A DNA stretch of 43,883 bases from Priapulus caudatus. Lineage: Eukaryota; Priapulida; Priapulimorpha; Priapulimorphida; Priapulidae. Location: the NCBI RefSeq assembly GCF_000485595.1, contig NW_014577349.1, positions 263,812 through 307,694 on the forward strand. Direction: 5' to 3'. A program made the position numbers and the translations under genes. The notes beneath the pieces were generated by a model. That model had not been told where the DNA came from, searched no databases, and saw nothing but the letters and a program-made list of their open reading frames with translations. Below are positions 1,308 through 38,382 of the stretch, in pieces. How positions within the stretch are numbered: the first letter of the stretch is position 1; every line of letters starts with the position of its first letter.

Positions 1308-1509
1308 CTATATACAGACGAAGTGCACACGGAAATTCGCCAGGTAATAATAGAATATATATGGAACCAAGTCCCCGCCCAGCAAAGAACGATTATCTAT
1401 GTTGTCAATGTTCTGTTCGTCGGAGACGCGTTCAACTTGATGTTCACTTGAGTATTAATACAAGCGCATGGAAAATATGAAGCAATGTGCGTATTGAACA
1501 TGTACACAC

Positions 1510-1669
1510 CTGAGAAATATGATGGCGTTCCTGGCGAAGTTTTCCCGCCCTTTATCAGTGGAACTCATTTTACTGAAGCGGCGCGGGCCAAAGTTGTAAC
1601 CGCCAACGGCTAGGAGAACCTTGAGCTGTGGATTCTTTCTCTTTAGAGCTAAGACCTCCTGATATTTCT
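1510..1669 (-). CDS. GH18 chitinase, exon 3
   Basis: The exon encodes KYQEVLALKRKNPQLKVLLA followed by VGGYNFG and then FSKM..RENFARNAIIFLR. This is the conserved second barrel strand (SxGG-like LLAVGGYNFG) and the following helix of family 18 chitinases. The acceptor is TTGATTTTTCAG and the donor CTCAG|GTGTGTAC. The 160 nt length carries two bases at each end, joining in frame to exon 2 (Glu codon) and exon 4 (Arg codon). The protein is secreted in the family and hydrolyses beta-1,4-GlcNAc polymers. Roles can be digestive, moulting-related or immune, and the sequence does not decide between them. Confidence 0.9.
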
Positions 1670-3059: not shown

Positions 3060-3300
3060 CTTTATCGTTCCACTCGAACGTAGAGAGTCGGTAGTGGGGA
3101 GCGCCACCGAACGTCGCAAAGCTGTAGATGATGTGCGTGCAGAGGAACGGATCGACGTCGGCAGGCACGAAGCGACCGACGCCGGGCCTGTACTGCGACC
3201 AGTTCGTGTAGTAGCACACCTTCCTGTAGGCGCTCGCTGCCGTGCTGCCTTGCTGCTGCGCCGCCAGACACAGCAGTATCAGCGCGGACGTCGTCAGAGC
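3060..3300 (-). CDS. GH18 chitinase, exon 2 (signal peptide and first barrel strand)
   Basis: The exon starts with the hydrophobic core of a signal peptide ([14 protein letters not shown]). It runs into [19 protein letters not shown] and [13 protein letters not shown], the hallmark N-terminus of animal family 18 chitinases, and ends at TFEWNDK. The conserved Cys pair (CYY and LCTH) expected for the first disulfide is present. The acceptor is CCTAACCTACTCTTGCAG with a good branch-like CTAAC. The donor is AAAG|GTGAGC. Length 241 nt; joins exon 3 through a split Glu codon. No ATG precedes the hydrophobic core inside this exon, so the start must be upstream. Confidence 0.9.
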
Positions 3301-4012
3301 CTGCAAGAGTAGGTTAGGATACCGTGTATATAATCACTCTTTCGTATAATATAGTTAGCATATCATACATTTTTTTACAGTTTTTATATCGTCTTTAGAG
3401 TTATTATACCATATAAGTGTATATATTATCTCGGTTTTATTCGTTATTTAATTAAAGGTTTTCATTATTCGTTAGTTTAATCTAACTCAACTCACTTAAC
3501 TCAAGTTGTAGAAATTTCTTTTAGGTGTTATAGTCACGTTGAGGCAAGACTGTGGGATCCAGGGGACTGTTGATGTCCAGCAGAGTCCTAGACGCTACAT
3601 TACGTCTATTGAATTCAGGCGATGAATTCTAAATACCTATTATGAGAGCTAAGCTAAGGGTCTGTACTCTAATCTATATTGCATTTAGAGCGTAGATTGC
3701 TCGTGAAAGCAATCTGGCAACATCATCTTCGCGGTTATGATGAAACACGCGTCACGGCTGAGTCGTCTGCTAGTGTTAACACGCTGATAGCGTTAAGGTT
3801 TTACCCATCTCAATCCAGTTTTGAGTCTTTATCTCTTCGTCACGTCTCAGGCGTGCTACTGATCGACAGATCCTCGTGTCTCCCCCGACCTTATAAATCA
3901 CTCACACGCTCGCGCACGCACGCGCGCAGGTACATATGCACGCACACATGCACACACGCGCACGCACGAACGCTTACATACATACACGCTCACGTACACA
4001 CATGTGCGCTCA

Positions 4013-8532: not shown

Positions 8533-9009
8533 TACACCCTTATCTCGAGTGCCTTAACATATACCATCTTATATGGACTCTCGACACACTGCAGATTTTC
8601 GGCATTCAAATCGCGAGCATTCCGCACGCATGCACGTAGACCCATTTCCGCGGTCCACAGCTAGAGGGGTGGGCGAGGGTAGATCGCGGCACGGTAGTTC
8701 GTTCTAGGGCCTCTCGCTCCGCCCATGCATTCATGTATCATCGCCGGCGACTATGCTAGGACACCCTCGGGCTATGTCATGCCAGCGCTCATTCATCGAG
8801 TGCTGGATCGGGAGGCATGTTTCTAGGCAGCTTCTAGGACATAGCAGTCGCGCGCGTATCGCAAAAAGACATGCGCCCGTCTGCGTTTAGATGCCTGTTT
8901 GCTATGGCGCAGATCTGTCAATGATCGATAGGTGGCCGTGCTGACGCCGGTGAAGCACGACTATAGCCGCGTGATGTGGTGGTCGGGAGATAATTCTACA
9001 CATCATAAT

Positions 9010-9060
9010 CAAGAATCCATGATAGAACATGTCTATAAAATTTTATTATGCGGACTCTTG
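9010..9060. mobile_element. Micro-hairpin insertion H1 (copy A)
   Basis: Arms CAAGAATCCATGATAG and (with one extra C) CTATTATGGACTCTTG, 19-nt loop, 51 bp. The flanking direct repeat is blurred by indels here (TCATAAT / ACTATAAT) but exact in copy B. Confidence 0.7.
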
Positions 9061-11235
9061 ACTATAATACATAGATTCTTATAGAGACTATGTAGAGATA
9101 TTGATGGGAATCTGTGGGGTAGTCACTGGGTTACACATTGCAATCCGCCTAGCCGAGAGACGTAAATGGGGCTCGCAGCCCACCACCTACCCGTTAGAGC
9201 TAGCAGATTTCCGCTCGGCGTCCTTCGCGAACGACCTGCCCGATTAGCTGCGCACGAGTCTTCAAGCTTCGGCGAATGTTTAATGAGAGCTTTATTTCTG
9301 CTTGAATTAGGATGAATAATAGGTATGAACCGTGTTTCGCAGTCCACTGCATGCTCGTATCTTCGGAAAATAAGGGAGAAAGTTCGGAAGAAGAGGCATT
9401 GACGGGAAAATGAAATGAAGTGAGAGGAAGAGGAGGAGCGAGCGAAAAGTAGGAGGGCAGGAGGAGAGACATGAGTGAAAGGATAGGAAGGGATCAGCAG
9501 AACGGTGATGAAAGGTTAGAAAGAAAGAAGGATGTGAAATAGCGAAACAGGCAGAAAGAATGCCAATGGGATGAGCAAAAAGAGAAAGCTGGAAGGATTA
9601 GGAAGGCCAAAGTAAGTATGGAAGGAGAGGAATGACGGTATAAAGGATGAAAGGACAACGGGAGAAGAGACGATTGAGTTTGTGGCTCATTCAGCGTACC
9701 TCAGCCACCGCACGTGTTTGCAACGAAGCGTTTACACCCTGAAAACTCCCGAATTTCAGGACTACGTCCTTTTACTCTTTTGGCATCTGTGAAGTGAAGC
9801 CCGAACCGTCTATCAACGGACGCAAAACTCACGCACAACCATATTTCGTTGCGTCGAGCTTATCTCCCGGATGAATCTATTAACACTATAGATAGTAATT
9901 AGTTATCCCAGCGCCTTTTAGCATTAGGCGAAATTCTAACTTCTAGTGTTAAGCCTTCATCCCTATATATACCCTATAAGCATCAATACGAACCGGCAAC
10001 AACTTACGCTAGGCCGTGAATTCTATTTGGTGCACGAACAAAAACGAAACAAATAACTTTAGCTGTGGATGATTTCCCTTCCCTCCGGGCCGGTGCCATA
10101 AGCAAGAGAACTATTTAATTCCTTATTTACGGTGACGTTACACATCAGGTACACATCCGCGCATCCAGGATCGGTAAATTAATTGTCTCGTTCTACTTAC
10201 GGGACGACATTTACCGCGGGAAACCAGTTAGGTGCGGGGGGGTGGGCGTATCCCACACCACCAACGGTCGACCCTTCACAAAATTCGCCATATGCGTGCC
10301 GATTAGTTACTTTTCGGTTGGAATTCGTCCGAACAACATACATAGTTGCTAGTTATTTATTACAGGTATTCAAGCTATTTCAACGTTCACGGTGTAACAT
10401 CTTGCGGTATACGCTTTCCCCTCCGCAGCCACGTAAATCGTGAGACTCGTTACCGTAATGGTCTTTACGAGAGAAGACAAAATAGAAAAATAGTATCAAA
10501 GAACGTTTCGACGTAATTGCGACGCTTTCCGTTTCATATACCCGGAATATTCCCGAGATTATTAAATTATTCGCGCAGTGCTTTATAGATTAGCCTCAGC
10601 TGCCAACGAAGCCGCGCCGTAAACTAGTAAATGTCAGGTAGAACTTACGCACGCACAGCGAGCGACGCGCTCGAATTCCCCCGACCATCCAGTCGCGGTC
10701 GCGCCAGCGAAATTTTTTCCCACTCGAGTTCCGGACCCACCATAGATATTGTTTTGTAATATATGGCGTTCAGTGTATATTATATGCGTTTGCGGATTAT
10801 TAGTTAGTGTTCGAGGTGTCGTGTACGTGTTGGCCGGTTTAGGGATTTAGGTGGTACTTCAGTTTTAACATGTTGCTTCGGGAAGTCGACGTGAATGGTG
10901 TGCGCTGAATTTGGCTGTGCGTGCCGGAAACTCAAGTGGTAGAAAACAAATATTTCGCTGGCCCGGCAGGCTCACTCTTTTTCGTCTCTAAATAGTCCGC
11001 TCTCAGAATGAGGCGCCATAAACAACCCGGTGTGTTTTAATAGGCGCGGATGCGTTATTGGCTTTTTGTTGGCTCGTAACAGACAAATGGGAGGCAGTGC
11101 GAAGAATCCGCACAGGCCAGCAACGAGCCCGGGCAGTGACATGATATATTAACAGCTGGATTTCGTCACACTACGCTTCGCCGCTAGTACTGTCACAAAT
11201 AGCAAAATTGCTTTACGCAGCAATGGCGACGCAAT

Positions 11236-11500
11236 GGGGGTCGTTGTCGTATCAGATTACTACAGATATGCTACCGAGGTAGTTTTAGGTTGTTTAGTAT
11301 TATGTTTATATTTTTATATGAGGTATGTTTAGGAGTTAGGGTTAGGGTTTAAGCGGTTAGTTAGGTTAGGCGTTAGGGCTAGAGTTCAGGTTTAGGTTCA
11401 GGGTACACTTCTGTAGTACCAGTCGTGTACACTTGTGTGTTATACATACATGTACCTCGGGATACATATCTGTAGTACCTGTGATAATGACAAACGACCC
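11236..11500. mobile_element. Inverted-repeat element with telomere-like core (copy A)
   Basis: Ends about GGGGTCGTTGTC..ATCAG..TACTACAGATATG and its reverse complement, with TACCTCGG motifs inside. The core is a corrupted (TTAGGG)n stretch at 11335-11400. The copy B counterpart at 21797-22094 shows the structure more cleanly. Confidence 0.6.
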
Positions 11501-11654
11501 TTGCAATGGCACGTACTCACTCCACGTATGTGTAGCCGAGGCTGAACCATGCAATCGTCGTGTTGCGGTTGCCTGTCTAGTAGATCAATTAAAACGCGGA
11601 CCCATCGCGATACGTTATTGCATACATGTAAATTGTATTGTGATCTATTTCTGC

Positions 11655-12013
11655 GAACACGTGCATTTTGTGTGAGACGTGTGCGGTGTATGTGTGTACG
11701 CGCGGCAGTGGTCCGGCGTTGTGTGCCGGGCGCGTGTGGGGCTGCTGCGCGCGCGCGGTGTGGTGTGTGCGCGGGGTGGCGGTGGTGTGTGTGTGTGGCG
11801 CGCGCGGCGTGTTTGTCTGGTGTGTGACTGTTGCGGGTCGTGTGTCGTTGTGTGTGTGTGTGATGCTGTTGTGTGTTGACGCGGCAGCGCGTGGCCGTAC
11901 GTACGTGCGGCGCGCGCGTGTGATGTGATGCAGCGCGCGCGCACATCCCTCGTGTTGGTGGTGTGTGGTGGTTTGCGTGCGTGGTGTGTGTGTGTGCGTG
12001 CGTGCGGCTGTGC

Positions 12014-12045
<32 letters not shown>

Positions 12046-12060
12046 TTGTGTGCATTTGTG
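11655..12060. repeat. GT/GC-rich simple-sequence block (copy A)
   Basis: Irregular GTGTGCG-type DNA; the copy B counterpart (22255-22470) is about half as long. Open frames on both strands are low complexity. Confidence 0.75.
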
Positions 12061-13344
12061 AATCGCGAGCTATGGTAGGTGTTCAGATCCAGTTCTAGTT
12101 GAAAACACGCACTGGCCTGTCTTGTCTAGGCTGCGAGACAGGACCGAGGCATCAAGCCAAAACCACAGTATTATACCTTACAGCTAAGTAAGCCTTAATT
12201 GCAAATGCCTATTTAATGAATTCATCCCACCCAAAACTTGAATAAAAACGTACAAATTCTACATAGGTTGGTTCTTAGCTAAGAGAGCGCACAGTTTCAT
12301 GTTCGGTCTTGCAGCCATCTAACAGGATCCCAGGGAAGAATCAGGCCCGTGAACCCCAACCGCATCCGCACTTGCCGGAATCAATACTAGAAATAGCGTG
12401 AAAAAATCCACGAGCATGATGTCACTTAATTATGACCAACCAGGAACTTCTTTTGATCGAACTACGCGTTCACTGGTAGAGGAAAAGCCGGAAACAAGAT
12501 GAAGATCAGTGAAGAGTTATGACTCTCTCAAATTTAAAGTCAGCTCTGTTGTTGTTAACCACGTCACGTGGCTTGCTTGCTGTCTTTGCTGTCATTTGGT
12601 TGTTGGTAAACACTACAGGCTGTGCCTAATGTGCCACCATCGACCACGATCTCTTGTTTAAATTCTTCTCCGAGATTTACGATTAGATTTGCAATACTCG
12701 TAACAGATTCCCATTAAAGTATGCTTTATTATGACAGCAGAATGAGCAAAATATCTCTCTACCGTCTAAAGAATTAGTGTGACTGCAAGATGTTAAAAAT
12801 CACAAATTAGACATAACAGATGAATACATCGCGAAAAACCCACCCGAAACACTCTCACATCAGCGTACCTTATGTGCTTCCCCCATGGTCCCCCCCCGGC
12901 CCCCCACCGCCCCGTTTCGTCTCATATGGTTTAGTTATAGGCTAGTGCAGAGAAAAAAGGTAACATGTTATATGGAACGTGTGCACAGAAAATAGTGTGC
13001 AAGCATTAAAGCCACAACGATGAACCATCATGAAAGGCAATTGGGATCTCGCATGCTGGCACTTGCATTTGACTCTATGCTTCACGGACATATAATAACA
13101 GGCACTCGGACTGCGAATGTTGAAAACGCGTTAAAGTTGATTACGTACCGTAAATAGTAAAAGTTAAACAAAATTATGTCCACTTTTACACAAAATGTAA
13201 GTGATTCTCTGTCACTTCTTATGCCGTTAAATTGCTGCTTATACTTCCTGCTATTCGCCCCTTTTCTCTGCTTCGAGTAAAACAAATACTCATTGACTCA
13301 TACATAGCCATAGCAGGCTGAGAGGGTCTAATGTACGACGGCAC

Positions 13345-13965
13345 CATGTGGCGAACGCACAAACTCAATTTTGTCTAGCAAAACTCAATTCTGTCTCCAA
13401 AAACTCACTGGTTCGTGAACACAACTCAATCTCTGTCTCACAAAACGTCAATTTTCGTGAACACAAGAACTCAATTCTGTCAATAACTGTGCCCCACAAA
13501 AACTCAATTTTTGTGAACAACAAAAACTCAATTTCTGTGCATCCTGTCCCACAAACATCAATTTGTGACACACAAACTCATTACTGTGCAATCCTCGTCC
13601 ACAAAACTCAATTTTTCGTTAACACAAAATCAATTCTGTTCGATCCGGTTCCACAAAACTCGATTTTGTTGGCCCGAAATATGGCCACACGCATGTAAGA
13701 AGGGCCTACCATTAGGTCAGAAGATGGCTGTGGAGAAATGCTGATTCGACGGAGTCGCCACTCTGTTTCTTTAACTTGTGACCCATTTCTCCAGCCCACG
13801 TTCTGACCAATGGTAGCCCTTCTTACACATTGGGTGGCCATATTTGGGCAACAGAATTAGTTTTGTGTTCACATAAATTGAGTTTTGTGGACAGGATTGA
13901 ACAGAATGTGACGTATTTAGTGTTACACATAAATGAGTTTTGTCCAACAAAACTCATTTTTGTCA
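13345..13965. mobile_element. Foldback element with ACAAAACTCAATT sub-repeat arms (copy A)
   Basis: The left arm is a tandem array of ACAAAACTCAATTYTGT units. Then come facing copies of a segment (..CCAAATATGGCCACACGCATGTAAGAAGG.. in degenerate form) around 13670-13720 and 13800-13850, joined by a spacer holding TGGAGAAATG and its complement. The right arm has ATTGAGTTTTGT units. It directly abuts the element at 14009-14220. Confidence 0.65.
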
Positions 13966-14008
13966 AGTTTATAGGTACAAAAATGCCTGTCCTGCATGGC
14001 GCCCAGTA

Positions 14009-14220
14009 CTATGTCCCCCAGGGTACTGCCGGAACGTAACCTGGGTACGGTCCGGTATACCGGAACGTACCCTGGTACTATCTAATCTGCCGCCTACACC
14101 TACTTCCTAACCCTATACCCTAACCATAACCATATCAAATAGTTACCAGGGTACGTTCCGGTATACCGGACCGTGCCCAGGGTACGTTCCGGCAGTACCC
14201 TGGGGGACATAGACCCTATG
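14009..14220. mobile_element. Inverted-repeat element with CCCTAA-like core (CAGGGTACG family, copy A)
   Basis: Arms are built of CCAGGGTACTGCCGGAACG and GGTCCGGTATACCGGAACG motifs and their reverse complements, and the outer edge is CTATGTCCCCCAG. The core has TAACCCTATACCCTAACC. Same family as 24391-24617 and 38556-38897. Confidence 0.75.
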
Positions 14221-14555
14221 AGCCATAGCAAGCCGTGATAAATATATCAAATCGTCCAGGTTTTTTGGATTTTTAACTAGTTGAAAAACAATCTTATCGG
14301 GTAGGAATTTGAGGATATATGTAGTCCAGTCAGTACTTACTTTTCATGTAAAAAAATTGCAACAAAATTTTCGCAAACATACACCATGGAAAATTCGTGG
14401 CGTAGTCAATTTAACAGCTCAATCTTACATGTCATCACATTATGTCAAAGATAGTGAAGTTGCTCGAGCAAGCACACGCTAGCAATCAGCATCCGCTTCC
14501 CAAGACATTAATGAGGAACCTTGCTAATTGCGGTATAATGAGAGATGCAAGCAAT

Positions 14556-14595
14556 CAAGAGTCCATAATAGGAAATTTTCTATTATGGACTCTTG
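14556..14595. mobile_element. Micro-hairpin insertion H2 (copy A)
   Basis: A perfect 16-bp stem, CAAGAGTCCATAATAG / CTATTATGGACTCTTG, with an 8-nt loop; 40 bp in total. The flanks are an exact 7-bp direct repeat AAGCAAT (14549-14555 and 14596-14602). Its right arm is identical to that of H1. Confidence 0.85.
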
Positions 14596-15167
14596 AAGCA
14601 ATGCACCATATGGATATTTGTAAGAAGAGAAACAACGCTCTCGCATGAGGCTTGGGCAATAGAAGAGCAAATAATGCACGAAACCATGATAGACAACGAT
14701 GACAACACGCCCGTGATTAAACCATATGCACCATATGCATATTTGTAAGAAGAGAAACAACGCTCTCGCATGAGGCTTGGACAATAGAAGAGCAAATAAT
14801 GCACGAAACCATGATAGCCAACGATGACAACACGACTTGTGCACACTGATAGCATTATTTCTCATGTATACCTTTGCATGTCGCCAGCACTTTAATGTAA
14901 AAATTTGATGCGAGCAAGCACACGCTATCGCGTTTGTTTGAGGGCATCTTTTCTACATATGATAGTTTTCCATGAGAAAGTTTGATCGTGATTTAATTTG
15001 CAGCATCTGCAATCGCGTGATGAAATCAGCCGTTGTAACTATGACGGGAAGAATACGCAGAGAAAAATATAGTTGAAGCTTGATTGAAAATAAATGTGTC
15101 GGAAAAATTCTACTGATAACGAAACCGCCCATGCTGGACAATCTCAACAAAGCTCACCTGAACAACA

Positions 15168-15169
15168 CA

Positions 15170-15217
<48 letters not shown>

Positions 15218-15222
15218 CACAC
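15168..15222. repeat. (GCAC)n(AC)n microsatellite (copy A)
   Basis: Clean GCAC then AC units. The copy B counterpart (25620-25719) has stray single bases inserted throughout. A similar microsatellite lies at 17262-17325, with its copy B partner near 27800-27860. Confidence 0.85.
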
Positions 15223-15748
15223 ATTTCTATTTAGTAGTTGTTTCATGTTTACCTGTGAGATATTTAGGAGCAGTGTAATAGACTCTGTAGAGACAAACAA
15301 AAATAATACACAAACACAGTAGGAAATGAGACTAGCATAGTAAAACACAGTATACTCGATGACTTGTGCTGTAATCAAGTAAAAATCATTTGCATACAAA
15401 TCTTCTGTGATACTTTGAAATGATGCTATTATTTCCTTTGTTGAATCTTTGAAACATTATTTTGTTATGCATGAACTTGTTCACGTATTTCAAAAACGGT
15501 TCGTGTTCCCATTGTTGGTTCAGTTGTACGCACGAGATCGCCTTAACTCAACACCGCGTTTGAGCTTGCACTACAAAACTGCTGTTTTTCAATATAATTT
15601 AAACGATCAGCACAGTCACAAAACCTAGGTAAAATTACGTAATTATTAGTCAAACGTTTTTTAATGCAAAATGAAACGTATAATAGCAATACCGGGATAT
15701 ATTTCACACAGGAATATAACGTGGGTGCTTCACAGTATGGGATTACAT

Positions 15749-15804
15749 CAGGAGTGAATAATAATAGATTATTATTATAATAGATCTATTATTTTTCACT
15801 CCTG
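15749..15804. mobile_element. Micro-hairpin insertion H3 (copy A)
   Basis: Starts CAGGAGTGAATAATAATAGA and ends with its near-perfect complement (..TTTTTCACTCCTG), 56 bp. Flanking 7-mers are ATTACAT and ATAACAT (6 of 7 match). Confidence 0.75.
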
Positions 15805-16382
15805 ATAACATGGTGCTGTTATTTATTATCCTATTTCATAGATATTTACGTGCCATCCTTTCTAAACGCCACACTTCTACAAAGTATAGATGTTATTTAT
15901 CTCTGAGCACAAATTCCACGAGTTACAACGTGAGATCAAAAGTCCGTCCTTATAAATTGTTAAAGTAAAAAATAGACTTCGTAATACATCGCTACCGAAA
16001 TTGATTTGACTCGTTCGCATACAAAATTCCACGTATGCATCGTCCGCACACAGGTGGCACCAAGAGGGCAATCAGGCACACCGGACCGCACAGCGGGCAT
16101 TTAAATACAAGTATACACACATATAAAATGTACACATATAAAAACATGCTAAGCAGTGCAACACACATACACCAGCACTCGGCTTTTCCGAGCCTACCTT
16201 TCCCGTTTTACGGGTCACCATGAATTTACAACCAGTTACAAACTAAGCTACATCCAGGCATAACGCCTTTACTCACGGTACATGTTTTAAATCATAAATT
16301 GCATCCGTACATAGATAATCACTACACGACCATTGTCCTCAGTTATTATGGATATATATATATATATATATATATATATTAC

Positions 16383-16412
16383 CAGGAGTCTATCAATATT
16401 GATAGACTCCTG
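16383..16412. mobile_element. Micro-hairpin insertion H4 (copy A)
   Basis: A perfect 30-bp palindrome beginning CAGGAGTCTATCAAT. The flanks are an exact 7-bp direct repeat ATATTAC (16376-16382 and 16413-16419). Confidence 0.85.
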
Positions 16413-18319
16413 ATATTACCACGTACAACCCTGTTTGCATATCGGGCTAATTGAATTTGTCTTTCGACTGATCTATTCATAATTATGTACACATAACTCT
16501 ATATACGTTGTGTGCAGAGAACACTTCAAAAAATATTAGCTTTAGCCTTTCACACACATACCCTCCTCCCACCCTGAAAAGTTGCATCCGGTTACTCTAA
16601 AACATGTAATACGTTACGGCCCTTACGGGAGGACTGTGGCGTGGCGAGCATAGGACCCCGATGGTGGACCGAGCTTAGGTAGTTGGTTCTCTTTGGCTTT
16701 TCTACGCGTTCTATATTTGCGTACATACATAATTGCACCTTTGTCTCGTCATCTCCACACTTGGTATAGAGTAAGTTCGCTTGGTTTTCATGTCAAACAC
16801 TGACTCATGCCACTACTGCCGCCGTAAAAAACAACACAGAAGTTAACGTAAGTCGACTGTAGATTCTGCTATTAAATTATACACAGAAAAAAAAATACCG
16901 TCTAACAATACACGGGCTAGAAACTATATAATATAATAATTATAATATAACTATAATAATCGCTAAAAATGCCATGCAACAGAATTCAGTCCACTATCAG
17001 AACCGCATATATCTAATCAACGGCAGCGGGTATGCGTTATTTAGTGGCGCGCACACACACATGCGAATATCAGGTGTGATTTCTTGCATTTATAAGTAAA
17101 GTATAATCGATAGCGTAACGGCAAGATTTACACAATACTGCTTATCCAAACGTTTGTGATTCATTTATTATGTGAGAAAACAGAGGCCATGTTCACACAT
17201 ACAGGTAATTCTCGATGCGATGAATGAGTTTGTTTTCGACACGTAAGTAATAATATTTATGCGCGCACACACACGCACGTACGCACGCACGCACGCACGC
17301 ACACACACACCCACACACACACACAAGCACGTTATTGTAGAAAACTAGATTTAATGGCGTTACTAACGTGACGAGATCGATTTTCACACACAAGCAATAA
17401 TTGCAGACAGATACAAGTGACAAGATGCCTCTAGAGTTGAGCCTCGCGACTCTGAGTTGCGCGTTTTTGGAATACGATGCTCGGTTAATTGACACTTTAA
17501 ATTTACGCGAGCTTTTATTTTGAATAACGCAATTACCGACAAACGATGAAAATCATCATAATACTAAATAGCGACCACTGGCAGACATCAACATTGGGAG
17601 CAGTGGCGTGGTGTTGTCAGCAGTGTACGTGAAGCTTGCGTAAACGTGTAGATCGAACGCATTGTGTTGTACTTATTGTACATAAAGTGGGTGGAATAGA
17701 GAGAGCCCACACTGCACTGTGATTCTGACTACTGGTAAGTAATTTAGTACTTTGTTATGTTATTGCCGTATTTCTCCTCGATTCGTTTTCATCCTCAGAT
17801 AAAAATAACACGGATTAAAAAAACGGGTAATGAAAGTAGGAAAAATATAAAGAATAGAAATTTCACATGAAAAGCGAGCACTGAAAATCATTCGACAATA
17901 GCCGGTGCCCATAAATACATCGATTCGAAAAGACCACGAGAATGTGGACCACAAGAATGTGGCCGAATATTCTTTCCAAAAATCGTCAGAAATACCCATC
18001 TGTTAGACAGTCAGACAAACTGTCGTTAGCAGTTGTTAGCAATCACTACTTAGGTAGCGCCTCCACACCCGACGGTGGCGAAACTTTGGCGATCTTCTAG
18101 AATGCTGGAAGATTTTCTTGCAAGTGCGCTCTTGCAAGAATATGCCAAACGAACTGTGTATCAGTTGCCGTGAGAACCTGAGCGAGATAATTTAGTAATG
18201 AAAACCACCACAGGCAGCCATCACCGTGGTTGCTGCAGACATCTCAGGTGCTATAACATAATAGGCAACCTTTGTAGGCAGTAGCCGCATTGTCTTGAAA
18301 TCTGCTTCATGACAAGATG

Positions 18320-18494
18320 GACATGCTCTCCCCGATGACGACCTTAATGAAGATGGTAGATGGCGCCAGAGGCTGTGGTGCATCGCGTTGTCTCATATCC
18401 ACTCTAGGATGTACCAGACGGCTGTGCACTGCACCGTGACAACCTTAATGAAGTCGGTAGATGGCGCCAGTGGTCGTCGCATGTCGCACCGCTC
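18320..18494 (-). repeat. Decayed tandem copies of the APAF1 terminal exon end
   Basis: Downstream of the APAF1 stop, two degraded copies of the exon's last part follow with a period of about 102 bp. The motif GGCGCCA recurs at about 18362, 18463 and, inside the real exon, 18565. Each is preceded by an ACCTTAATGAAG-like or ACTTGCTGAAG-like string. The middle copy also preserves the stop region (TCTCATATCCACTCTAGG versus TCTCAGATCCGCTCCAGG). They are non-coding relics. The same array follows copy B at 28870-29046. Confidence 0.7.
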
Positions 18495-18724
18495 TCAGAT
18501 CCGCTCCAGGACGTACAGGATACCAGCGCTGTCCACTGTGACGAACTTGCTGAAGTCGGCAGAGGGCGCCACGTACTTTACGAAGCTGCCGCGCACGTGG
18601 AATGTCTGCAGCAGTTCTCCATCCTTCCGCCAGAACTTGACGCTATCGGAAGCGGACACAATGACGTTGCCGCCGGGCGATAAGTGAACGTCTGTCACCC
18701 AGCTGTTGTGCCGGGAGAGCACAT
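18495..18724 (-). CDS. APAF1: APAF1-like protein, terminal exon (intact, copy A)
   Basis: The exon encodes the end of the C-terminal WD40 propeller: SWVTDVHLSPGGNVIVSAS, a KFW strand, then SADFSKFVTVDSAGILYVL and the final ERI. The tail VTVDxxGILYxL is the diagnostic C-terminus of APAF-1, the cytochrome c-responsive apoptosome scaffold. The acceptor CCTATCCGCAG leaves an AT that completes an Asn codon with the A ending the exon at 29790, so splicing is in phase although the gap is 11 kb. Length 230 nt including TGA. A minus-strand AATAAA lies far downstream, near 17514-17519. The copy B version of this exon is frameshifted. Confidence 0.88.
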
Positions 18725-19155
18725 CTGCGGATAGGAAGGAAACCATCGTGAAGTGCCCTGACTGCAATCATATATATGTCATGCGTCAAGTCTGCATTGA
18801 GACAGCCATTAATGACCATGAAACAATGCTGAGATTCCATAATTATACAAACCCTTCTACTGAAATGTGGTATACGAAAATTAACATCAAAGAAGAAATC
18901 ATTACGTGGTGGTAAACTGATTGATGTCTACTTGCTGTTATTTCACAGCGTGAACGACTACGTGAATGACTAAATAATGTAACCAGTTCAAAACACAAAG
19001 ACACACGACAGAAATAACAGCCCACTGGAACATTGATATGCTCACATAAGGATAATATTATTTTATCAATATAAATATCATATATGTGTGTACGTGTGTG
19101 GGGTGTGTGCGTATATATATATATTGTGTGTGAGTTTACTATATATATATATAAT

Positions 19156-19378
19156 ATTGCTAAACGTGAAAATAGTGCCGTGAACGCTATACCATCGTTG
19201 CGACTACAGCCTGACCAATAACGGATGAAATAACGAGGAATCAACTTCTGCAGTTATTCACGAGTTCTGCGTGTTATCCCGCTTCTAATTGTTTTATTAA
19301 CACGCCTTGTTACGTTATTTTAGTGGGCTAATTATTAACTAATTAGGCTTCTAGCATCGTAAGTGTTTGAGAGAAGCA
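19156..19378. other. 223 bp spacer between duplication copies
   Basis: Unique sequence joining the TA-rich end of copy A to the start of copy B. It matches neither the left flank of copy A nor the right flank of copy B, so it is not explained by a simple head-to-tail duplication. No feature was recognised in it. Confidence 0.6.
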
Positions 19379-19716
19379 ATGCACGTAGACCCATTTCCGC
19401 GGTCCACAGCTAGAGGGTAGGATCGCGGCACGGTAGTTCGTTCTAGGCCTCTCGCTCCGCCATGCATTCATGTATATCGCCGGACTATGTAGACACCCTC
19501 GGGCTATGTCATGCAGCGCTCATTCATGAGTGCGTGATCGAGGAGGCATGTTTCTAGGCAGTTCTAGACATAGGTCGCGCGTTCGCCAAAAGACATCGGT
19601 GCGTTTAGATGCCTGTTGCTATGCGAGATCTGTCAATTATCGATAGGTGGCGTTGTGACGCCGGTGAAGACGACTATGCCGGTGATGGTGGTGGTCGGAG
19701 ATATTCTACATATAAT

Positions 19717-19767
19717 CAAGAATCCATGATAGAACATGTCTATAAAATTTTCTATTATGGACTCTTG
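19717..19767. mobile_element. Micro-hairpin insertion H1 (copy B)
   Basis: Arms CAAGAATCCATGATAG / CTATTATGGACTCTTG (two mismatches, both wobble-compatible), loop 19 nt, 51 bp. Exact flanking 7-bp repeat ATATAAT (19710-19716 and 19768-19774). Confidence 0.85.
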
Positions 19768-21796
19768 ATATAATACATAGATTCTTATAGAGACTATGTA
19801 GAGTATTATGGGATATCTGTGGGGTAGTCACGTGGGTTACACATTGCATCGCTAGGAGATGACGTAATGGGGCTCGCAGCCACCACCTACCCTAGAGCTA
19901 GCAGATTCGCTCGCGTCCTTCGGAACGACCTGCGAGATTAGCGCGCACGATTCAAGGTTCGGCGATTGTTTAATGAAGAGCTTTATATTTCTGCTGATAT
20001 TAGGATGAATAATATTGAACCCGTGTTTTCGCAGTTCCACTGCATGCCGTCGATATTTATTCAGGAAAATAAGGAGAAAGGTTCGGAAGAGAGGATTGAC
20101 GGGAAAATGAAAGAAGTGAGAGGAAGAGGAGGAGGAGGAAAAGGAGGAGGAGGAGGAGAGAATGAGTGAAAGGATAGGAAGGGACAGAGAAGGGATGAAA
20201 GGTTAGAAAGGGAAAGAAGGGATGTGAACATAAGCGAAAAGGAGAAAGAATGCAATGGGATGAGCAAAAAGAGAAAGGCTGGAAGGATAGGAAGGCAAAG
20301 AGTAAGTATGGAAGGAGAGGAATGGACGGAGAAAGGATGAAAGGCAACGACGGGAAGAAGAGACGATTGAGTTTGTTGGTCATTCAGCGTACCTCAAGCC
20401 ACCGACGTGTTTGCAAGAGCGTTCACTCCCGAAAACTCCCCGAATTCAGGACTAGTCCTTTTACTCTTTTGGCATGTGTGAAGTGGAAGCCCGAACCGTC
20501 TATACGGGACGCAAACTCACCGCACAAGCCCATATGGGTTGGTCGAGCTTATCTCCCGATGTCATTAACCTATAGAGTAATTAGTATCCCCAGGCTTTTA
20601 GATTAGGCGTAAATTCTAACTTCTAGTGTTAAGCCTTACCCTATATATACCCTAATAGCATAAATACAAACGGAAAAACTTACGCTTAGGCCGTGAATCT
20701 ATTTGGTGAACGAACAAAACGACAACAATAATTTAGCCTTGTGATTTCCCTTCCCTCCGCCGGTGCCATAAGCCAAGAGAACTATAATTCCCTTATTTAC
20801 TGTGACGTTACACAATCGGTACACATCCGCGATCCAGGATCAGGTAAATTATTTGTCTCGTTCATACTTACGGACGACATTACACGCGGAAACAGTAGAT
20901 GGGGGGGGGGGGTATCCCACACCACCAACGGCTCGACCTTCACAAAAGTCGCCATATGGTGCGTTTAGTACTTTTGGTTGGGAATCCCCTTGAACAACAT
21001 AATAGTTGCTAGTTATTTTATACAGTATCAGCTATTTAACGTTCAGGAACACTTGGGATACGCTTTCCCTCCGCAGCCACGTAAACGTGAGACGTTACCG
21101 TAATGTTTTAACGAGAAGACAAAAGAAAAAAGTATCAAAGAAACGTTCGACGTAATGTACGCTTTCCGTTTATATACCGGAATATTCCCGAAGATTATAA
21201 TTATTCGCGCGTGTTTATAATTAGCTCAGTTGCCACGAAGCGCCTAACTAGTGAAGTCGGAGAAACGCACGCACACGAGCGACGCGCCCGATTCCCCGAC
21301 TCCAATGGCCGGCAGCGAAATTTTTTTTCCCACTCGAGTTCCGGACCCACCATAGATAGTGTTTTGTAATATATGGTTCGTATATATATGGTTGGATTAT
21401 AGTTAGTGTTAGGTGTCGTGTACGTGTTAGGGTTAGGGATAGGTGGTACTCATTTTACATTGTTGCTTCGAGGAAGTCGAGTGAATGGAGTGCGCTGATT
21501 GGCTGTGGTCCGGAACTCAAGTGGGAAAAAATATTTCGCTGGCCGGCAGCTCACTCTTTTTCGTCTCAAATAGTCGTCTCAGAATGAGCGCCATAAAACA
21601 CCTGTGTTTTAATATGGACGGGATGCGTTTATTGCTTTCGTCGGCCGTAACAAGACAAATGGGAGGAGTGGACGAAATCGCACAGGCCAGCAAGAGCCCC
21701 GGGGCAGAGATGATATATAACAGGTGATTCGTCACACTACGCTTCGCCGCTAGCCTGTCACAATAGCAAATTGCTTTACGCAGCAATGGCGCAGAT

Positions 21797-22094
21797 GGGG
21801 TTGTTGTCGTATCAGATACTACAGATATGTACCCGAGGTAGTTTTAGGTTGTTTAGTATTATGTTTATATTTTTATATAATTAGGAGGTAGTTTTAGGTT
21901 GTTTAGTATTATGTTTATATTTTTATATGAGGTATGTTTAGGGTTAGGGTTAGGGTTAGGGTTAGGGTTAGGGTTAGGGCTAGAGTTAGGGTTAGGGTTA
22001 GGGTACACTTCTGTAGTACAAGTCTGGTACACTTTGTGTATACATACATGTACCTCGGGTACATATCTGTAGTACCTGATATGACAACGACCCC
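21797..22094. mobile_element. Inverted-repeat element with clean (TTAGGG)n core (copy B)
   Basis: About 42-bp inverted ends, GGGGTTGTTGTCGTATCAG then TACTACAGATATGTACCCGAGG, against the reverse complement at 22050-22094. The core at 21934-22010 carries about a dozen TTAGGG-type hexamers with one TTAGGGCTAGAG break. No coding sequence. Confidence 0.7.
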
Positions 22095-22254
22095 TTCAAT
22101 GGCACGTACCTACTCCACGTATGGTAGCCGAGGCTGACCATGCAATCGGCGAGTTGCGGTTGCTGTTCTAGTAATCAATAAAAACGCGGACCCATCGCGA
22201 TACGTATGGCCATCATGTAAATTGTATTGTGATCTTTTTGCGACACGTGATTTT

Positions 22255-22470
22255 GTGAGACGTGTGCGTGTATGTGTGTGCGCGCGCGCACGTGGGTGTG
22301 TGTGTGTGTGTGCACGCGCGCGTGGGTGTGTGTGCGTGCGTGTGTGTGTGTAGCTGCCGCGCAGCGTGTTGTTGTGCTGTGTCGTGTCGTGCGTAGCGTG
22401 GTGTGTGACTGTGTGGTGTGGATCGTGTGTGCTCTCATGTAGTGCAGCGGCGCGGCGGTCGGTGCATTTC
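22255..22470. repeat. GT/GC-rich simple-sequence block (copy B)
   Basis: Counterpart of 11655-12060, shorter and more regular (GTGTGTGTG with CGCGCG patches). Confidence 0.75.
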
Positions 22471-23721
22471 GTGAATCGCAGAGCTATGGTTAGGTACTTC
22501 AGATCCAGTTGCTAAGTTGAAAAACACGCACTGGCCTGTCTTGTCTAGGCTGCGAGACAGGACCGAGGATCAGCAAACCACATATATACCTTAGCTAATA
22601 ATTGCCTTAAATTGCAAATGCCTATTTAATGAATTCATCCCACCCAAAACTTGAAAAAAAACGTATAAATTCTACAATTAGAGTTTGTTCTCTTAGCTGA
22701 AGAGAGGCGCACAGTTTCATTGTTCGTCGTGCCAGCCAATTAACAGGATCGAGGAACGGAATCAGCTGGGCCGGTGAACCCCAACCCATCCAACTTGCCG
22801 GAATCAATACTAGCAAATAGGATTGAAAAAACTCGGGACGAGCATGCAGTCACTTAATTATGGACCAACCAGAACTTCTTTTGATGCGACTTACGCGTTC
22901 ATGGTAGAGGCAAAGCCGAACAAGATCGAAAGATCAGTAAAGATATGACTCTCCAATGTCAAAGTCAGCTCTGTTAGTATTACTCGTCACGTTGTGCTTG
23001 CTTGCTTGTCATTGCTGTCATTGTTTGTTGGTAACATACAGTGTGTGCCTAATGGCACCTCGAAATTCATTTTTAAATTTTCTCGAGAGATTTACGATTA
23101 GATTTCAATACTTCTAACAGATCCTTAACAGTATGGATTTTATTTTGATAGCAGGAATGAGCAAATATCTCTCTACTCGTTAACAGAATTAGGTGTGGGA
23201 AGCATGTTAAAAATACAATATTATGACATAAATGAAGTACATCCGAAAAACCACCCGAAACTCTCACATCAGTACTTATTTTCCTCCATCAGTTGTTATT
23301 CGGTCTCTATGTTTGAATGTTTAGCTAGCAGTGCAAGAGAGAAAAAGGTATACATGTTATTATGAACCTGTTGCACAGAAAATGTGTGAAGGATAAAGAC
23401 AACAACGATAGAAGCCTCATGAGAGCAAATTGGGATTCCATGTGGCACGCATTTGACCTATGCTTCACGGCAATATAATAACACGGCCACCGCGACTGCG
23501 CATGTAAAACGCGTTAAAGTGGATTTACGTCACCGTAAATAGTAAAAGAGTAGAACAAAATTATGGTCCACATTATTACACAAATGTAAGTGACTTCTCT
23601 TCATCTTTTATGGTTACATGCTGCATTATCATTCTATTTGCTATTCCGTTCGATGTAAACAAATACTCATGACTATACCATAGCCCCATGAGCAGCTGAG
23701 AGTGGTCTATGTACGGCGGCA

Positions 23722-24345
23722 CCATTGTGGGACAAAATCCAATTTTGTATAGCAAACTCAATTCTGTCTTTCCACAAACTCACTTTTGTTGAAACACATA
23801 ACGTCATTCTGTTCTCACAAAAGTCAATGTTTCGATGAACTCACAAACTCAAATTCTGTCAATCCTGTCCACAAACACTCAATTTCATGTGAACACAAAA
23901 ACTCAATTCTCGGTAACTCCTGCCACAAAACTCAATATTTGTGAACAACAAAAACTCCAATTCCTAGTCCAATCCTGTACCCACAAAACTCAATTTTTGT
24001 AAACACAAACTCAATTCTAGTTCAATCCGGTTGCACAAAACTCGATTTTGTTGCCCAAATATGGCACACGCAATGTAAGAAGGCTACCATTGTCAGAAAC
24101 TGGGACTGGAGAAATGTTCACGGTCGCATCTTGTTTCTTTTAACTTAGTGACCATTTCTCCCAGCCCAGTTTCTGTCACCAATGGTAAGCCCTTTCTTAC
24201 ATGGTGCTGCCATATTTGCGGCAAGAATTGAGTTATTGTTGATTTTCCAGAAATTGAGTTGTGGCAGACAGGATTGAACAGAATGAGTTATTGTGTCTCA
24301 CAAAGTGAGTCTCTGTCCAACAAACATCATTTTGCTCAAGATATC
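23722..24345. mobile_element. Foldback element with ACAAAACTCAATT sub-repeat arms (copy B)
   Basis: Counterpart of 13345-13965 with the same arm and core order and many single-base differences. Confidence 0.65.
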
Positions 24346-24390
24346 TAAGGCTACAAGAATGCTCTGTCCCTGCAATGGCGCCCCGGTACT

Positions 24391-24617
24391 TTATGTCCCC
24401 CAGGCTCCTGCACGGAACGTACCTCGACGTACGGTCCGTGTATACCGGAACGACTCCACCCCAGCGCCTCATCTAATGTGCGCCACACCTACTTCCTAAC
24501 CCTATACCCTAACCAATTAACCATATCAAATAGTTACCAGGGTAACTGTTCCGGGTATACCGGACCGTCGCCCAGGGTACGATTCCGGCTAGTACCTGGG
24601 GAGACATAGACCTATGA
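24391..24617. mobile_element. Inverted-repeat element, CAGGGTACG family (copy B)
   Basis: Counterpart of 14009-14220. Arms contain CCGGTATACCGG-like palindromic motifs in noisy form. The core has TAACCCTATACCCTAACC. Confidence 0.7.
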
Positions 24618-24966
24618 GCCAATAGCAACGCCGTGAATCAAATATATCAAATCATCCAAGGTTTTTGGATTTTTAACTAGTCTTGAAAACAAATCTATCG
24701 GGTAGGAATTGAGGATTATATGTAGTCCAGTCAGTATTACTTTTTCAGTGTAAAAAATTGCAACAAAATTTCGCAAAATTCACCCATGGAAAATTCGTGG
24801 CGTTAGTCAATTTTAACAGCTCATCTTACATCTGTCATCACATTATGTCAAAGGGATTAGTGAAGTTGGCTCGAGCAATGCACACGGTAGCAATTCAGCA
24901 TCGCATTCGCCAAACATTAATGAGGAACCTTGCTAATTGCGGTATAATGAGAGATGCAAAGTCAAT

Positions 24967-25006
24967 CAAGAGTCCATAAAGGGAAATTTTCCTATTATGG
25001 ACTTTA
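24967..25006. mobile_element. Micro-hairpin H2 (copy B, damaged)
   Basis: Recognisable as CAAGAGTCCATAAA... and ...CCTATTATGGACTTT. Indels break the stem that is perfect in copy A. Confidence 0.6.
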
Positions 25007-25619
25007 AGCACATGCATCCATATGGCTATGTTGTAAGAGAGAAACAACGCTCTCGCATCGAGGTGCTTGGGCAATAGAAGAGCAAATAATGCACGGAAAC
25101 CACTGATAGACAACGAGGACAACACGCCCTGATTTAAACCATATGCACCATATGCATATTTGTATAGAAGATCAAACAACGCTATCGCTATGAGGCTTGG
25201 ACAATAGAAGAGCAAAATATATGCACTGAAACCATGATCAGCCAAACGATCCGACACACCGACTTGTGCACACTGATAGCAGTTATTCTCATGTATACCT
25301 TTGCATGGTCGCCCAGCACTGTTAATGTAAAAATTTGCATGCCGAGCAGCACACGCATATCGCGTTGCTTGTTTTTGAGGGCATCTTTTCGACATCATTG
25401 ATAGGTTTTCCATGAGGAAAGTTTTGATCCGTGATTTAATGTTTGCCAGCATCTGAATCGCGTGATGAAATCAGCCGTTGTAACTATGACGGGAAGAATA
25501 CGCGAGAAAAATATAATTGAAGCTGATTGAAAAAAAAAATCAATAAATGTGTCGGAATAAAAATTCTATGATCTAACGAAACCGCCCATGCGTGGCAATG
25601 CTCAACAAAGCTCACCTGA

Positions 25620-25687
25620 ACACACACGCACGCTACGCCACGCACGGCACGCACGCACGCGACGCACGCCACGCAGCGCACGCACGC

Positions 25688-25719
<32 letters not shown>
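25620..25719. repeat. Interrupted (GCAC)n(AC)n microsatellite (copy B)
   Basis: Partner of 15168-15222. Single extra bases interrupt the GCAC units while the AC part stays clean, a pattern more like read error than mutation. Confidence 0.8.
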
Positions 25720-26265
25720 TTTCTATTAGTTAGCTTGTTTCATGGTTGTGAGGCCTTGTGAGATTATTTAGCGAGCAGTGATAATTAGAACTCTGTAGAC
25801 AAATAAAAATAATCACAAACACAGTATGGAATGAGACTAGCCCATAGTAAAACACAGTATACTCGATGACTTGTGCTGTATCAAGTAAAAATCATTTGCA
25901 TACAAATCTTCTGTGATACTTTGAAATGATGCTATTATTTCTTTTGTTTGAATCTTTGAAACATTATTTTGTTATGCCAATGAACTTGTTCACGTATTTC
26001 AAAAACGCGTTCGTTGTCCCATGTTGGTTCAGTTGTACGCACGAGGATCGCTTAACTCAACAACCGCACACGTTTGAGCTTGCACTACAAAACTGCCTGT
26101 TTTTCAATATAATTTAAAGCGATCAGCACAGTCACAAAACCTAGGTAAATTACGTAATTATTAGCATCAAACGTTTTTTAATGCAAAATGAAACGTATAA
26201 TAGCGATACCGGATATATTTCACACAGGAATATAACTCGTGGGTGCTACAGTATGGATATTACAT

Positions 26266-26324
26266 CAGAGAGTGATAATAATAGATTATTATTATAATAG
26301 ATCTATTATTATTTTCACTCACTG
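26266..26324. mobile_element. Micro-hairpin H3 (copy B)
   Basis: Same hairpin as 15749-15804 with small indels near both ends. Flanks ATTACAT / AATAACAT. Confidence 0.65.
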
Positions 26325-26902
26325 AATAACATGGTGCTGTTATTTATTATCCTATTTCATAGATATTTACGTGCCATCCTTTCTAAACGCACCACTGTCT
26401 ACAAAGTATAGATGTTATTTATCTCTGAGCACAAATTCGCACGAGTTAAAACGTGAGATCAAAAGTCCTCCTTATAAATTGTTAAAGTAAAAAATAGACT
26501 CGTAATACATCGCTACCGGAATTGATTTGACTCGTTCGCATACAAAATTCCACGTATGCGATCGTCCGCACACCAGGTGCACCAAGAGGGCAATCAGGCA
26601 CACCGGACCGCCACAGGCGGGCATTTAAATACAAGTATACACACATATAAAATGTACACATATAAAAACATGCTAAGCAGTGCAACACACATACACCAGC
26701 ACTCGGCTTTTCGAGCCTACCTTTCCCGTTTTACGGGTCACCATGAATTTACAACCAGTTACAAAAACTAAAGCTACATCCAGGCATAACGCTTTACTCA
26801 CGGTACATGTTTAAATCATAAATTGCATCCGTACATGATAATCACTACACGACCATTGTCCTCAGTTATGATGATATATATATATATTATATATATATAT
26901 TA

Positions 26903-26932
26903 CAGGAGTCTATCAATATTGATAGACTCCTG
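26903..26932. mobile_element. Micro-hairpin H4 (copy B)
   Basis: The identical 30-bp perfect palindrome to 16383-16412. The flanking repeat has lost single bases. Confidence 0.75.
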
Positions 26933-28869: not shown

Positions 28870-29046
28870 ACATGCTCTCCCACGATGACGACCTTAATGA
28901 AGATGGTAGATGGCGCCAGAGGCTGTGGTGCATCGCGTTGTCTCATATCCACTCTCTAGGATACCAGACGGCTAGTGCACTGCACCGCTGACAACCTTAA
29001 TGAAGTCGTAGATGGCGCCAGTGTGTCGTCGCATGTCGCACGCCTC
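28870..29046 (-). repeat. Decayed tandem copies of the APAF1 terminal exon end (copy B)
   Basis: Counterpart of 18320-18494, with GGCGCCA at about 28912 and 29013 and in the exon relic near 29118. Confidence 0.65.
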
Positions 29047-34961: not shown

Positions 34962-36800
34962 ACAACCCACCCACCGAAAAAAAATACGAAGCACATCGTT
35001 AAAACGTGGTACGCATCGTACGAACACAGATACGCGCGACGCCAGCGTCAGCCGTCGCAAGCCGCCGCCATTTGCACCGGTAGATCCACGCGTGACTAAA
35101 AGAATATTGCGCACTAACAGATAGAAGTCGTACTCTGTGAAAAGTAAAACGCTTACGCAAAAAACGAACACGCTTGATTGTAGCCAACAAAGAAGCTCTA
35201 ACGAGATCGTAGCAGATACTAAAGCCAAATCACGGCAAAAAAAACATTTGCACGGTACGAACGTCGCTGCACGCACCTGAACATATGGTTAGCAAACAAA
35301 CAAAAAACGTATATAAATGGTGAAAATAAATCGCTGCACGTCGGAATTTTGTTTTTGCGACTACGTGCGTACACAGATGTAATCAATAGCATATAAAGAA
35401 GGCCTTCTTTATTTGCTCTTGGTGTAATCGTGTTTGCGCGACTACGTATACGTATGCCCGCAGATACAAATCGAACACACAGGCTATTGTGCTGTGACCA
35501 CGTATGTGAACGCAGTTTTTACACAGAAACATCGGCTGCTGCTAAAGAAGTCAACTGCCGAAGTCATGCAAAAAAGCCCATCAAGCATTTAAACTGATTT
35601 TATTATTATTACTAATTGCTGTCGCTTACGGCTGGCGAATGTTTTGCTAAAATATCAATGCTGCGTTGCGAAAAAATCTGCTCATCTTCAGTTTCTTTGC
35701 ACGCAGAATTACAAAAAAATGAAAAAGTGTACTGGGGATCAATAAATCTCGTATTCGCGTAACGCACGCATGCGTGCCTAATACTCTAGTTATCGTGGGA
35801 TGATATTTTCCGTCATACTTGGAGGAGCGCTATGTAACAAGAGTAGGCGATATAGCGGAGCGCGTGTGTGCTACGTATTATAACAGGCACGTGTGATCGT
35901 ATAGTGACCAGGTTCGCGAACAGTAGATACGTGTGCTATTGTACTGAAGCCGCAGGCAGTATAATGCTATAACCACAGAATTATTGCAGTACCTCTAGTC
36001 TTTAATAATCAACATCATAGTGACAATCATATACAATACATAGGTGGCTACACAGGCCAACTAGAAAATACGCGTTACAAATGATTTATAGCTTACGATT
36101 TATATAGAGCATATATATATATTAGAGCAGCAGGCAGCAGCTAGGGTCCGCAGCGAGAGACGTCCGGCGGCGACGGTGACGAGCAACGAGAGCAGGTGAG
36201 AGAGCAGCGCGGTTGCTGACAGCGCCGTGAACTGTCTGTCTCTTTGTCCAAATCGGCGGGTTTTTATTCATCTTCAGGAATCCGTGGCCCGAGCGTGGTC
36301 AATGCCTTGTTGCGCGCGGATGGTGCAATACTGTCGTCATCTCCAACATTTTTATGGCTAAGTGAAGGTGAGAAGCTTCTCGCTCCGTGGCTAGCTAAGT
36401 GAAGGTGAGAGGCTTCTCGCTCCGGCGTGGGAATGGCGGCGTTTCGCTTCATGTTTCCATATTTCACATTTGTCGGCGACGTTCGTTGTTTGTTCTTCAT
36501 GAGTCGGCATGCGACATCAAACTGTGACGTGTTTCTCTCCGCCTTGTTTAGGTGCTAAACTGTCACTCTGCCGTCGTGGGTGATAACTTTTACTCGCGTT
36601 CCAGTGACTCATCGCAGTTTCTAATCGACGGGCGACGTGCCACTGCTGATGACGGAAATAAAATCGTTACAGTTTTAACCCTGGTTGGAATATAAAAAAC
36701 GATGCACGGGTCGCTGTGGCGCAATCACTTTCTCTTGAGGTCGTTACAATGATCGACACGGTTTCTCCGGATGGTTGGGTGACATTGTTCACTTGTTGCC
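34962..36800. other. Intergenic or intronic; no confirmed exon
   Basis: Contains micro-hairpin H6. A 30-bp direct repeat (GCTAAGTGAAGGTGAGA..) is doubled at about 36355-36425. A purine-rich stretch at 36125-36200 ends GAGAGCAG|GTGAGAGA and could be a 5' untranslated exon for the GPCR. No supporting reading frame exists for any of this. Confidence 0.4.
35384..35421. mobile_element. Micro-hairpin insertion H6
   Basis: 38 bp: CAATAGCATATAAAGAAGG facing CCTTCTTTATTTGCTCTTG, two mismatches, no loop. Flanking 7-mers ATGTAAT and GTGTAAT (6 of 7). The right terminus keeps the family end CTCTTG. Confidence 0.7.
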
Positions 36801-38256: not shown

Positions 38257-38325
38257 CTAGGTTTCGACATAATTTGAGGAAATGGTTACCTTTTCTCGTC
38301 GCTATAAGCAGTATATTCAATATAT

Positions 38326-38375
38326 CAAGAGCTAATAATACCTTAATAATATCACCAAGGTATTATTAGCTCTTA
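38326..38375. mobile_element. Micro-hairpin insertion H5, 3' of the GPCR
   Basis: CAAGAGCTAATAATACCTT pairs with AAGGTATTATTAGCTCTT around a 12-nt loop, 50 bp. The last base is A instead of G. The flanks are an exact 7-bp repeat AATATAT (38319-38325 and 38376-38382). It lies 70 bp after the GPCR stop codon. Confidence 0.85.
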
Positions 38376-38382
38376 AATATAT

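Follow-up and report, generated by a model that had tools for sequence, protein, structure and literature searches.

The window, by which we mean the whole 43,883-nucleotide stretch of Priapulus caudatus DNA analysed here, contains fragments of a gene resembling GH18 chitinases, together with an open reading frame for a rhodopsin-type GPCR. The only strong relative of the latter among the proteins searched is an oxytocin-receptor-like protein of Priapulus caudatus (55% identity over 86%). Several repeats are also present: a tandem repeat with units of 53/109 bp, a satellite with units of 8/16/32 bp and two copies of a GC-rich palindromic repeat family. A 10.5-kb segment of the window is also present as a noisy tandem duplication. 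Over the 10,919 columns of the alignment of its two copies there are 307 mismatches and 1008 letters of gap, the gaps being mostly one base long. The duplication probably results from the assembly of noisy reads and not from a biological event. The positions of these features, and of the elements described below, are given in Table 1.

Table 1. Features of the window (positions without a prefix) and related elements at other loci.
Feature	Position	Strand	Description	Flanking repeat
Tandem repeat	709-1239		units of 53/109 bp
GH18 chitinase-like gene pieces	1455-3333	-
Tandem duplication	8630-19157 and 19379-29701		10.5 kb, noisy
GC-rich palindromic repeat family	14009-14223 and 38568-38897		CCCAGGGTACTGCCGGAACGTACCCTGG...; latter copy includes a stretch of CCCTAA and, internally, a 31-bp tandem repeat
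H2	14556-14595 (span 14549..14602)	.	40-bp palindrome; noisy second copy starting at ~24967	AAGCAAT, exact, 14549-14555 and 14596-14602
H3	15749-15804 (span 15742..15811)	.	56-bp palindrome; second copy at ~26266-26324	ATTACAT/ATAACAT (6/7)
H4	16383-16412 (span 16376..16419)	.	30-bp perfect palindrome, arm type CAGGAGTCTATCAATA; second copy at 26903-26932	ATATTAC, exact
H1	19717-19767 (span 19710..19774)	.	51-bp palindrome; noisy second copy at 9010-9060	ATATAAT, exact
Satellite	33957-34835		units of 8/16/32 bp (TACATAGCTACATTGC)
H6	35384-35421 (span 35377..35428)	.	38-bp palindrome	ATGTAAT/GTGTAAT (6/7)
Rhodopsin-type GPCR reading frame	37033-38256 (reading frame at 37060-38253)	+
H5	38326-38375 (span 38319..38382)	.	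50-bp palindrome, arm type CAAGAGCTAATAATACC; just 3' of the GPCR reading frame	AATATAT, exact
Nested copies	L098 9820-9983; L098 4264-4456; L108 4945-5030		3/32 copies lie inside another copy
CATAGA palindromes	L100:4405-4459; L110:1742-1773		second palindrome type	GTTCCCAC (8 bp); GTGTGAC (7 bp)
L127	70-912		843 bp, fold-back, inward H4-type arm pair; inverted repeats 366 nt, 95%	ATAATAT, exact
L154	G000:C944:104440-106100		~1.58-kb relative of L127
L174			inverted repeats 324 nt, 99%	7 bp, exact
L175				8 bp, after extra TCTCCTG
L176/L177			682 bp, H1/H2 arm type	GTACAAT, exact 7 bp

An earlier note on this DNA had described six near-perfect palindromes, H1 to H6, each flanked by a 7-mer direct repeat. 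All six are present, and the 7-bp repeats directly abut the palindromes, being exact in H1 (the copy at 19717), H2, H4 and H5 and having one mismatch in H3 and H6. H1, which has the same arm type as H2, begins with CAAGAA and not with CARGAG. The six loci are indeed independent, although H1 is not the sole duplicated one: H1 to H4 each occur in both tandem copies and, because their second copies lie in the tandem duplicate, the number of loci is six and not more. The contig of the window also carries a third copy of the H1 flanks and of the H2 flanks (C289:197360 and 217121). An Rfam search gave nothing that reaches the gathering threshold.

We then compared the window with 300 dinucleotide shuffles of itself, using a scan for the terminal motif plus a palindrome. 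The scan found seven palindromes (the seventh being the second copy of H4), six of which have a 7-bp repeat with at most one mismatch and four an exact one; the corresponding means for the shuffles were 0.22, 0 and 0, and the maxima 2, 0 and 0. Next, the genome (385,217,808 bases in 2952 contigs) was searched for the terminal pattern CARGAG-N(18-48)-CTCYTG, with the reversed pattern as control. The pattern matched 6549 times and the control 752 times, an excess of ~5,800. Counts no higher than background, which the earlier note had named as a refuting outcome, were not seen. The claim of a real, non-random family with fixed-length duplications of the transposase type is upheld by these counts and by the 7-bp repeats, and the hairpin family is both real and abundant.

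The flanking repeats were analyzed in a sample of 243,883 bases, consisting of the window and 20 stretches of 10 kb, which were picked for holding a pattern match (the first matches, on one contig; 26,520 N). Among the 30 strict pattern rows in this sample, the exact abutting repeat is 7 bp long in 16, 8 bp in one, 4 bp in one and 3 bp in one, while 300 shuffles of the sample contained no exact 7-bp abutting repeat. A tolerant finder gave 34 rows, which correspond to 32 elements once a segmental duplicate and a row due to chance are set aside. Their duplications are exact in 23 cases and have one mismatch in nine, a count conditioned on the presence of a repeat, as the finder permits up to two mismatches. 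Hairpin-like copies of 61-193 bp are also present. The 200 kb of fetched stretches contain 46 arms with the family motif, five of which lack a partner at a distance of up to 75 nt. Of the five, one is a true single arm, and the other four come from an 89-bp copy and a nested one. Long elements must be rarer than the tiny ones, because none was seen among the arms of this 200-kb sample. Palindromes of a second type, starting with CATAGA, were also observed at two loci and could have been left as scars by some other transposon.

When the target sites of the 32 elements were read in both orientations, the consensus ATAWTAT was obtained, and 28 of them have both T in the second position and A in the sixth. 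Three copies lie inside another copy, and deleting the inner copy together with one duplication rebuilds palindromes of 43, 44 and 141 bp. Such nesting seems to exceed what the small share of these copies in the sequence would lead one to expect, and AT-rich centres may be preferred targets. The earlier note had proposed a search for empty sites, and the uninterrupted state is directly visible only in the three nested copies. The joined flanks of six tiny copies, searched against the one assembly, matched nothing but the places from which they came and duplicates of these, which are occupied as judged by length; for these six flank pairs, neither an empty site nor a locus in both an element-occupied and a scar form was seen. 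When empty sites were sought within the fetched sequence, the matches listed were AT-rich simple repeats and the known duplicate copies.

The two arms of a tiny copy belong together. They differ at 0.97 of 14 positions inside an element, compared with 4.1 between elements. Position 3 agrees between the arms in 43 of the 43 palindromes kept among the matches listed (49 sequences entered the test, and six were removed for having more than four mismatches). Genome-wide, patterns with mixed A/G at this position number 376 + 352, against 193 + 147 for the controls, which after subtraction of the control leaves ~388 of 5797 (~6.7%). In the H4 arm type, C or G at position 8 is concordant in all 50 copies (the best 50 of 99 listed), where 13.4 mixed copies would be expected if the arms were independent (P about 1.6e-7).

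The centres behave differently from the arms. The same 50 of 99 copies, whose 16-nt arms have one of two forms, contain 33 distinct centres, two of which recur six times each. This turnover favours a repair joint, because a mobile unit would transmit its centre, whereas a joint would be repeated only if the same microhomology were reused. Some of the differences may be sequencing errors and, since the assembly is noisy, the diversity of centres is inflated to some degree. Read by eye, the filler in copies of 65-151 bp resembles arm motifs or simple repeats and not the inner inverted repeat. Filler that resembles the arms is consistent with polymerase-templated end joining, by which the centres would have been made.

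The earlier note had guessed that the hairpins could derive from a larger transposon that duplicates 7 bp. This holds for the arm types that were followed up, those of H1/H2, H4 and CAGGAGTAGATAATAGGG, whose arms are the first 16-20 nt of the inverted repeats of larger elements, mostly of 0.6-0.85 kb. The H4 arm alone has 391 + 381 matches in the genome. The long element with this arm, L127, belongs to a family dispersed in the genome, with 468 candidates at first look, of which 40 were scored; of nine further members whose ends were read, seven have exact 7-bp duplications and two have one mismatch. These long elements share the subtypes of the tiny copies, namely C/G at position 8 and T/A at position 15. 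At eight further H4-type places (L128-L135), the duplication is exact in five, has one mismatch in two and is lacking in L133. In the L127 relative of ~1.58 kb, L154, the centre has an extra stretch that, by eye, is bounded by CAGTCCTCGCCAAA...TTTGGCGAGGACTG.

For the CAGGAGTAGATAATAGGG arm, 629 + 594 matches were found, compared with 228 + 216 for its inner repeat, so many of these ends lack an intact inner repeat, with the reservation that a longer and hence stricter pattern was used for the inner repeat. Of nine long pairs of this type, one is not a single element; the other eight have exact duplications, which are 7 bp long in four and 8 bp long in four (the latter read by eye, as the script tested 7). 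The H1/H2 arm has 184 + 187 matches, and one of the two long pairs listed is a true element, L176/L177. Four relatives of H2, of 40-45 bp, have an exact duplication in two cases, one mismatch in one and none found in one (L183). Pooling the long elements (n=21) gives 14 with exact 7-bp duplications, four with exact 8-bp duplications, two with one mismatch and one with an 8-bp duplication plus extra bases; L126, L168/169 and L178/179 proved not to be single elements and were left out. The lengths of the inverted repeats were measured in L127 and L174, the remaining long elements being known from their ends. Viral contigs carrying the H2 arm were considered and rejected: none of 20 loci has a partner arm, and 19 share one conserved stretch, from which L019 differs.

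The arms of the tiny copies mostly leave the long repeat at 16-20 nt. In 42 H4-type copies, the 84 arms match the L127 repeat for 16 nt (58 arms), 17 nt (9), 18 nt (16) or 19 nt (1), the search pattern having demanded the first 16 nt. None of the 84 passes 19 nt, although the repeat is 366 nt long. Earlier departures, at 9, 13 and 14 nt, are seen in three right arms of another 11 H4-type copies. Of the 12 arms of the H1/H2 type, 11 end at 16-17 nt: those of H2 match the L176/L177 repeat for 16 and 17 nt and the right arm of H1 for 17 nt, while its left arm departs at nt 6. Three copies of the CAGGAGTAGATAATAGGG type were tested, and 20 nt per arm are kept in two of them and 16 nt in one.

We consider it likely, with a probability of about 0.82, that the hairpins are excision footprints of a DNA transposon with long inverted repeats, cut in the staggered manner of P-type elements. 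The 30-56-bp hairpins themselves are probably not transposing units. Because the arms end at 16-20 nt of a much longer repeat and the centres differ from copy to copy, a scar explains them better than an insertion; the view of the hairpins as inserted units and the suggestion of hairpin-mobilised DNA are both unsupported. According to the proposed mechanism, such a transposon, whose inverted repeats measure 366 nt in one copy and 324 nt in another, would insert at an AT-rich palindromic ATAWTAT site and duplicate 7, sometimes 8, bp of the target. Its transposase would later nick one strand at the edge of the element and the other ~17 nt inside, as in the P element, and the two short inverted-repeat tails would be sealed by microhomology or filler synthesis. 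The product would be a duplication, up to 16-20 nt of the left repeat, a variable centre, up to 16-20 nt of the right repeat and the second duplication. The same origin probably extends to the arm types of H3, H5 and H6. Several observations tell against the scar model: the failure of the six flank pairs to show a site in two states; the lack of a transposase with these ends at the eight P-type loci inspected out of 64; the 20-nt arms of the CAGGAGTAGATAATAGGG type and its recurring 40-mer (the same in four of 49 sequences among the matches listed), a recurrence that a mobile unit would show; the H4-type centres that recur; and the missing duplications of L183 (one of four H2-like copies) and L133 (one of eight H4-type places).

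As an alternative, the hairpins would be self-mobile, ultra-short palindromic elements, perhaps synapsed as cruciforms, which are moved by the transposase of the long elements. The recurrent H4-type centres speak for this, tiny copies bear duplications of their own (exactly 7 bp in 16 of the 30 strict rows), and one 40-bp palindrome is found at different sites with different duplications (ATGATAT in L100 and ATATTAT in L107). However, copies with the same arms mostly differ in their centres, and the arms finish near the expected end of a staggered cut. Moreover, the distance of the THAP site from the end is ~70 bp in Galileo and 41-63 bp in P (PMC3688188), and the scars keep less than that. 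We therefore regard self-mobility as unlikely. A 30-bp duplex, moreover, can hardly bring its two ends together. Equally improbable, in our opinion, is that the palindromes are both scars and units, in which case a 30-40-bp footprint would be remobilised, for example as a cruciform, and spread; if true, these would be among the smallest mobile DNA of any animal nucleus.

Excision could also be followed by gap repair, in which copying proceeds inward from both edges of the gap, with the sister as template, and is aborted, so that the outermost ends of the repeats remain as internal-deletion derivatives. Defective copies of Galileo have been ascribed to gap repair that suffers abortion, slippage or template switching (PMC4168063), and copies of 61-193 bp exist here. 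Arms of any length would then be expected, yet none of the 84 goes beyond the limit given above, and the longer copies (L128-L132 and L134) leave the repeat at 9-18 nt. Aborted repair may explain a minority of the copies, but as a general account it is less probable still than mobility of the hairpins. The AT-rich context and the noisy, duplicated assembly would be in favour of chance palindromes or an assembly artefact. This explanation is refuted by the shuffles, the excess over the reversed control and the sharp 7-bp length of the duplications, and we give it practically no weight.

It is well supported that the parents of the hairpins work like cut-and-paste elements of the P type, and excision, rather than another route, would have made the hairpins. 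The P superfamily, and Galileo in particular, is the best fit, because of the 7-8-bp duplications, the palindromic AT-rich target, the long inverted repeats and the offset of the cut (PMC2775673, PMC4168063, PMC1562414). The enzyme is thus presumably a Galileo-like member of the P superfamily, although the membership of the parents is not proven. The P-type transposase domain PF21787 has 64 matches in the genome and none in 14 control genomes. The long elements sought by the earlier note were found, but not their transposase: at the eight of the 64 P-type loci that were fetched, no CARGAG ends with a duplication surround the domain, with one lone arm-like match in L120, and none of the eight fits as a direct parent. 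The widest pair of facing inner repeats within 10 kb spans ~1.4 kb (best 100 of 444 rows). The hAT superfamily, for which an 8-bp duplication is the rule, does not fit, as 7 bp is the rule here.

Taken together, the hairpins are most likely excision scars of Galileo-like elements, and they would number in the thousands should the arm types examined prove typical. Excision scars usually consist of a few bases and are hard to recognise. Those described here keep 16-20 nt per side plus the duplication, so a scar can be assigned to an arm type. They may record both the departures of transposons and the repair of the break by the cell. The ~5,800 matches above control would allow departures to be counted beside residents, and the scars would give the cleavage offset of the transposase without biochemistry. 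They would also sample thousands of natural double-strand-break joints in a phylum with almost no repair genetics. For the annotation of repeats, palindromes like these need not be MITEs.

Titles and the starts of abstracts in the literature, with few subscription journals among them, gave no genome-wide footprints and no priapulid elements of such a kind. The 6-7-bp duplications of the Dada superfamily are similar to those found here, but Dada has RNA-gene targets and its described families lack terminal inverted repeats (PMC3706591); since the ends here are inverted repeats, Dada does not fit by that definition. The P-MITEs of Anopheles gambiae are likewise transposase-less elements with P-type ends, but they have 8-bp duplications and sizes, according to the family names listed, of 205 to 675, far above those of the scars (PMC1562414). 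Galileo and 1360 of Drosophila resemble the parents in their 7- or 8-bp duplications and long inverted repeats and, less clearly, in their palindromic AT-rich target (PMC4168063, PMC2775673). The Galileo target is GTANTAC (PMC4168063, PMC2775673), whereas ATAWTAT has the same inner bases with A/T instead of G/C at the outer positions. The word footprint is absent from the main text of two Galileo papers (PMC3573991, PMC4168063). A close parallel to the hairpins is provided by the P footprints of Drosophila melanogaster. In these, the target duplication and the tails of the termini are retained around a joint that varies. The cut made by the P transposase gives the transposon end a 3' extension of 17 nt (PMC10983969), and the arms described here are likewise cut near 17 nt. 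Unlike P, whose duplications are 8 bp (PMC1562414), the Priapulus elements mostly have 7-bp duplications, one arm type keeps 20 nt, and thousands of pattern matches are present in one genome.
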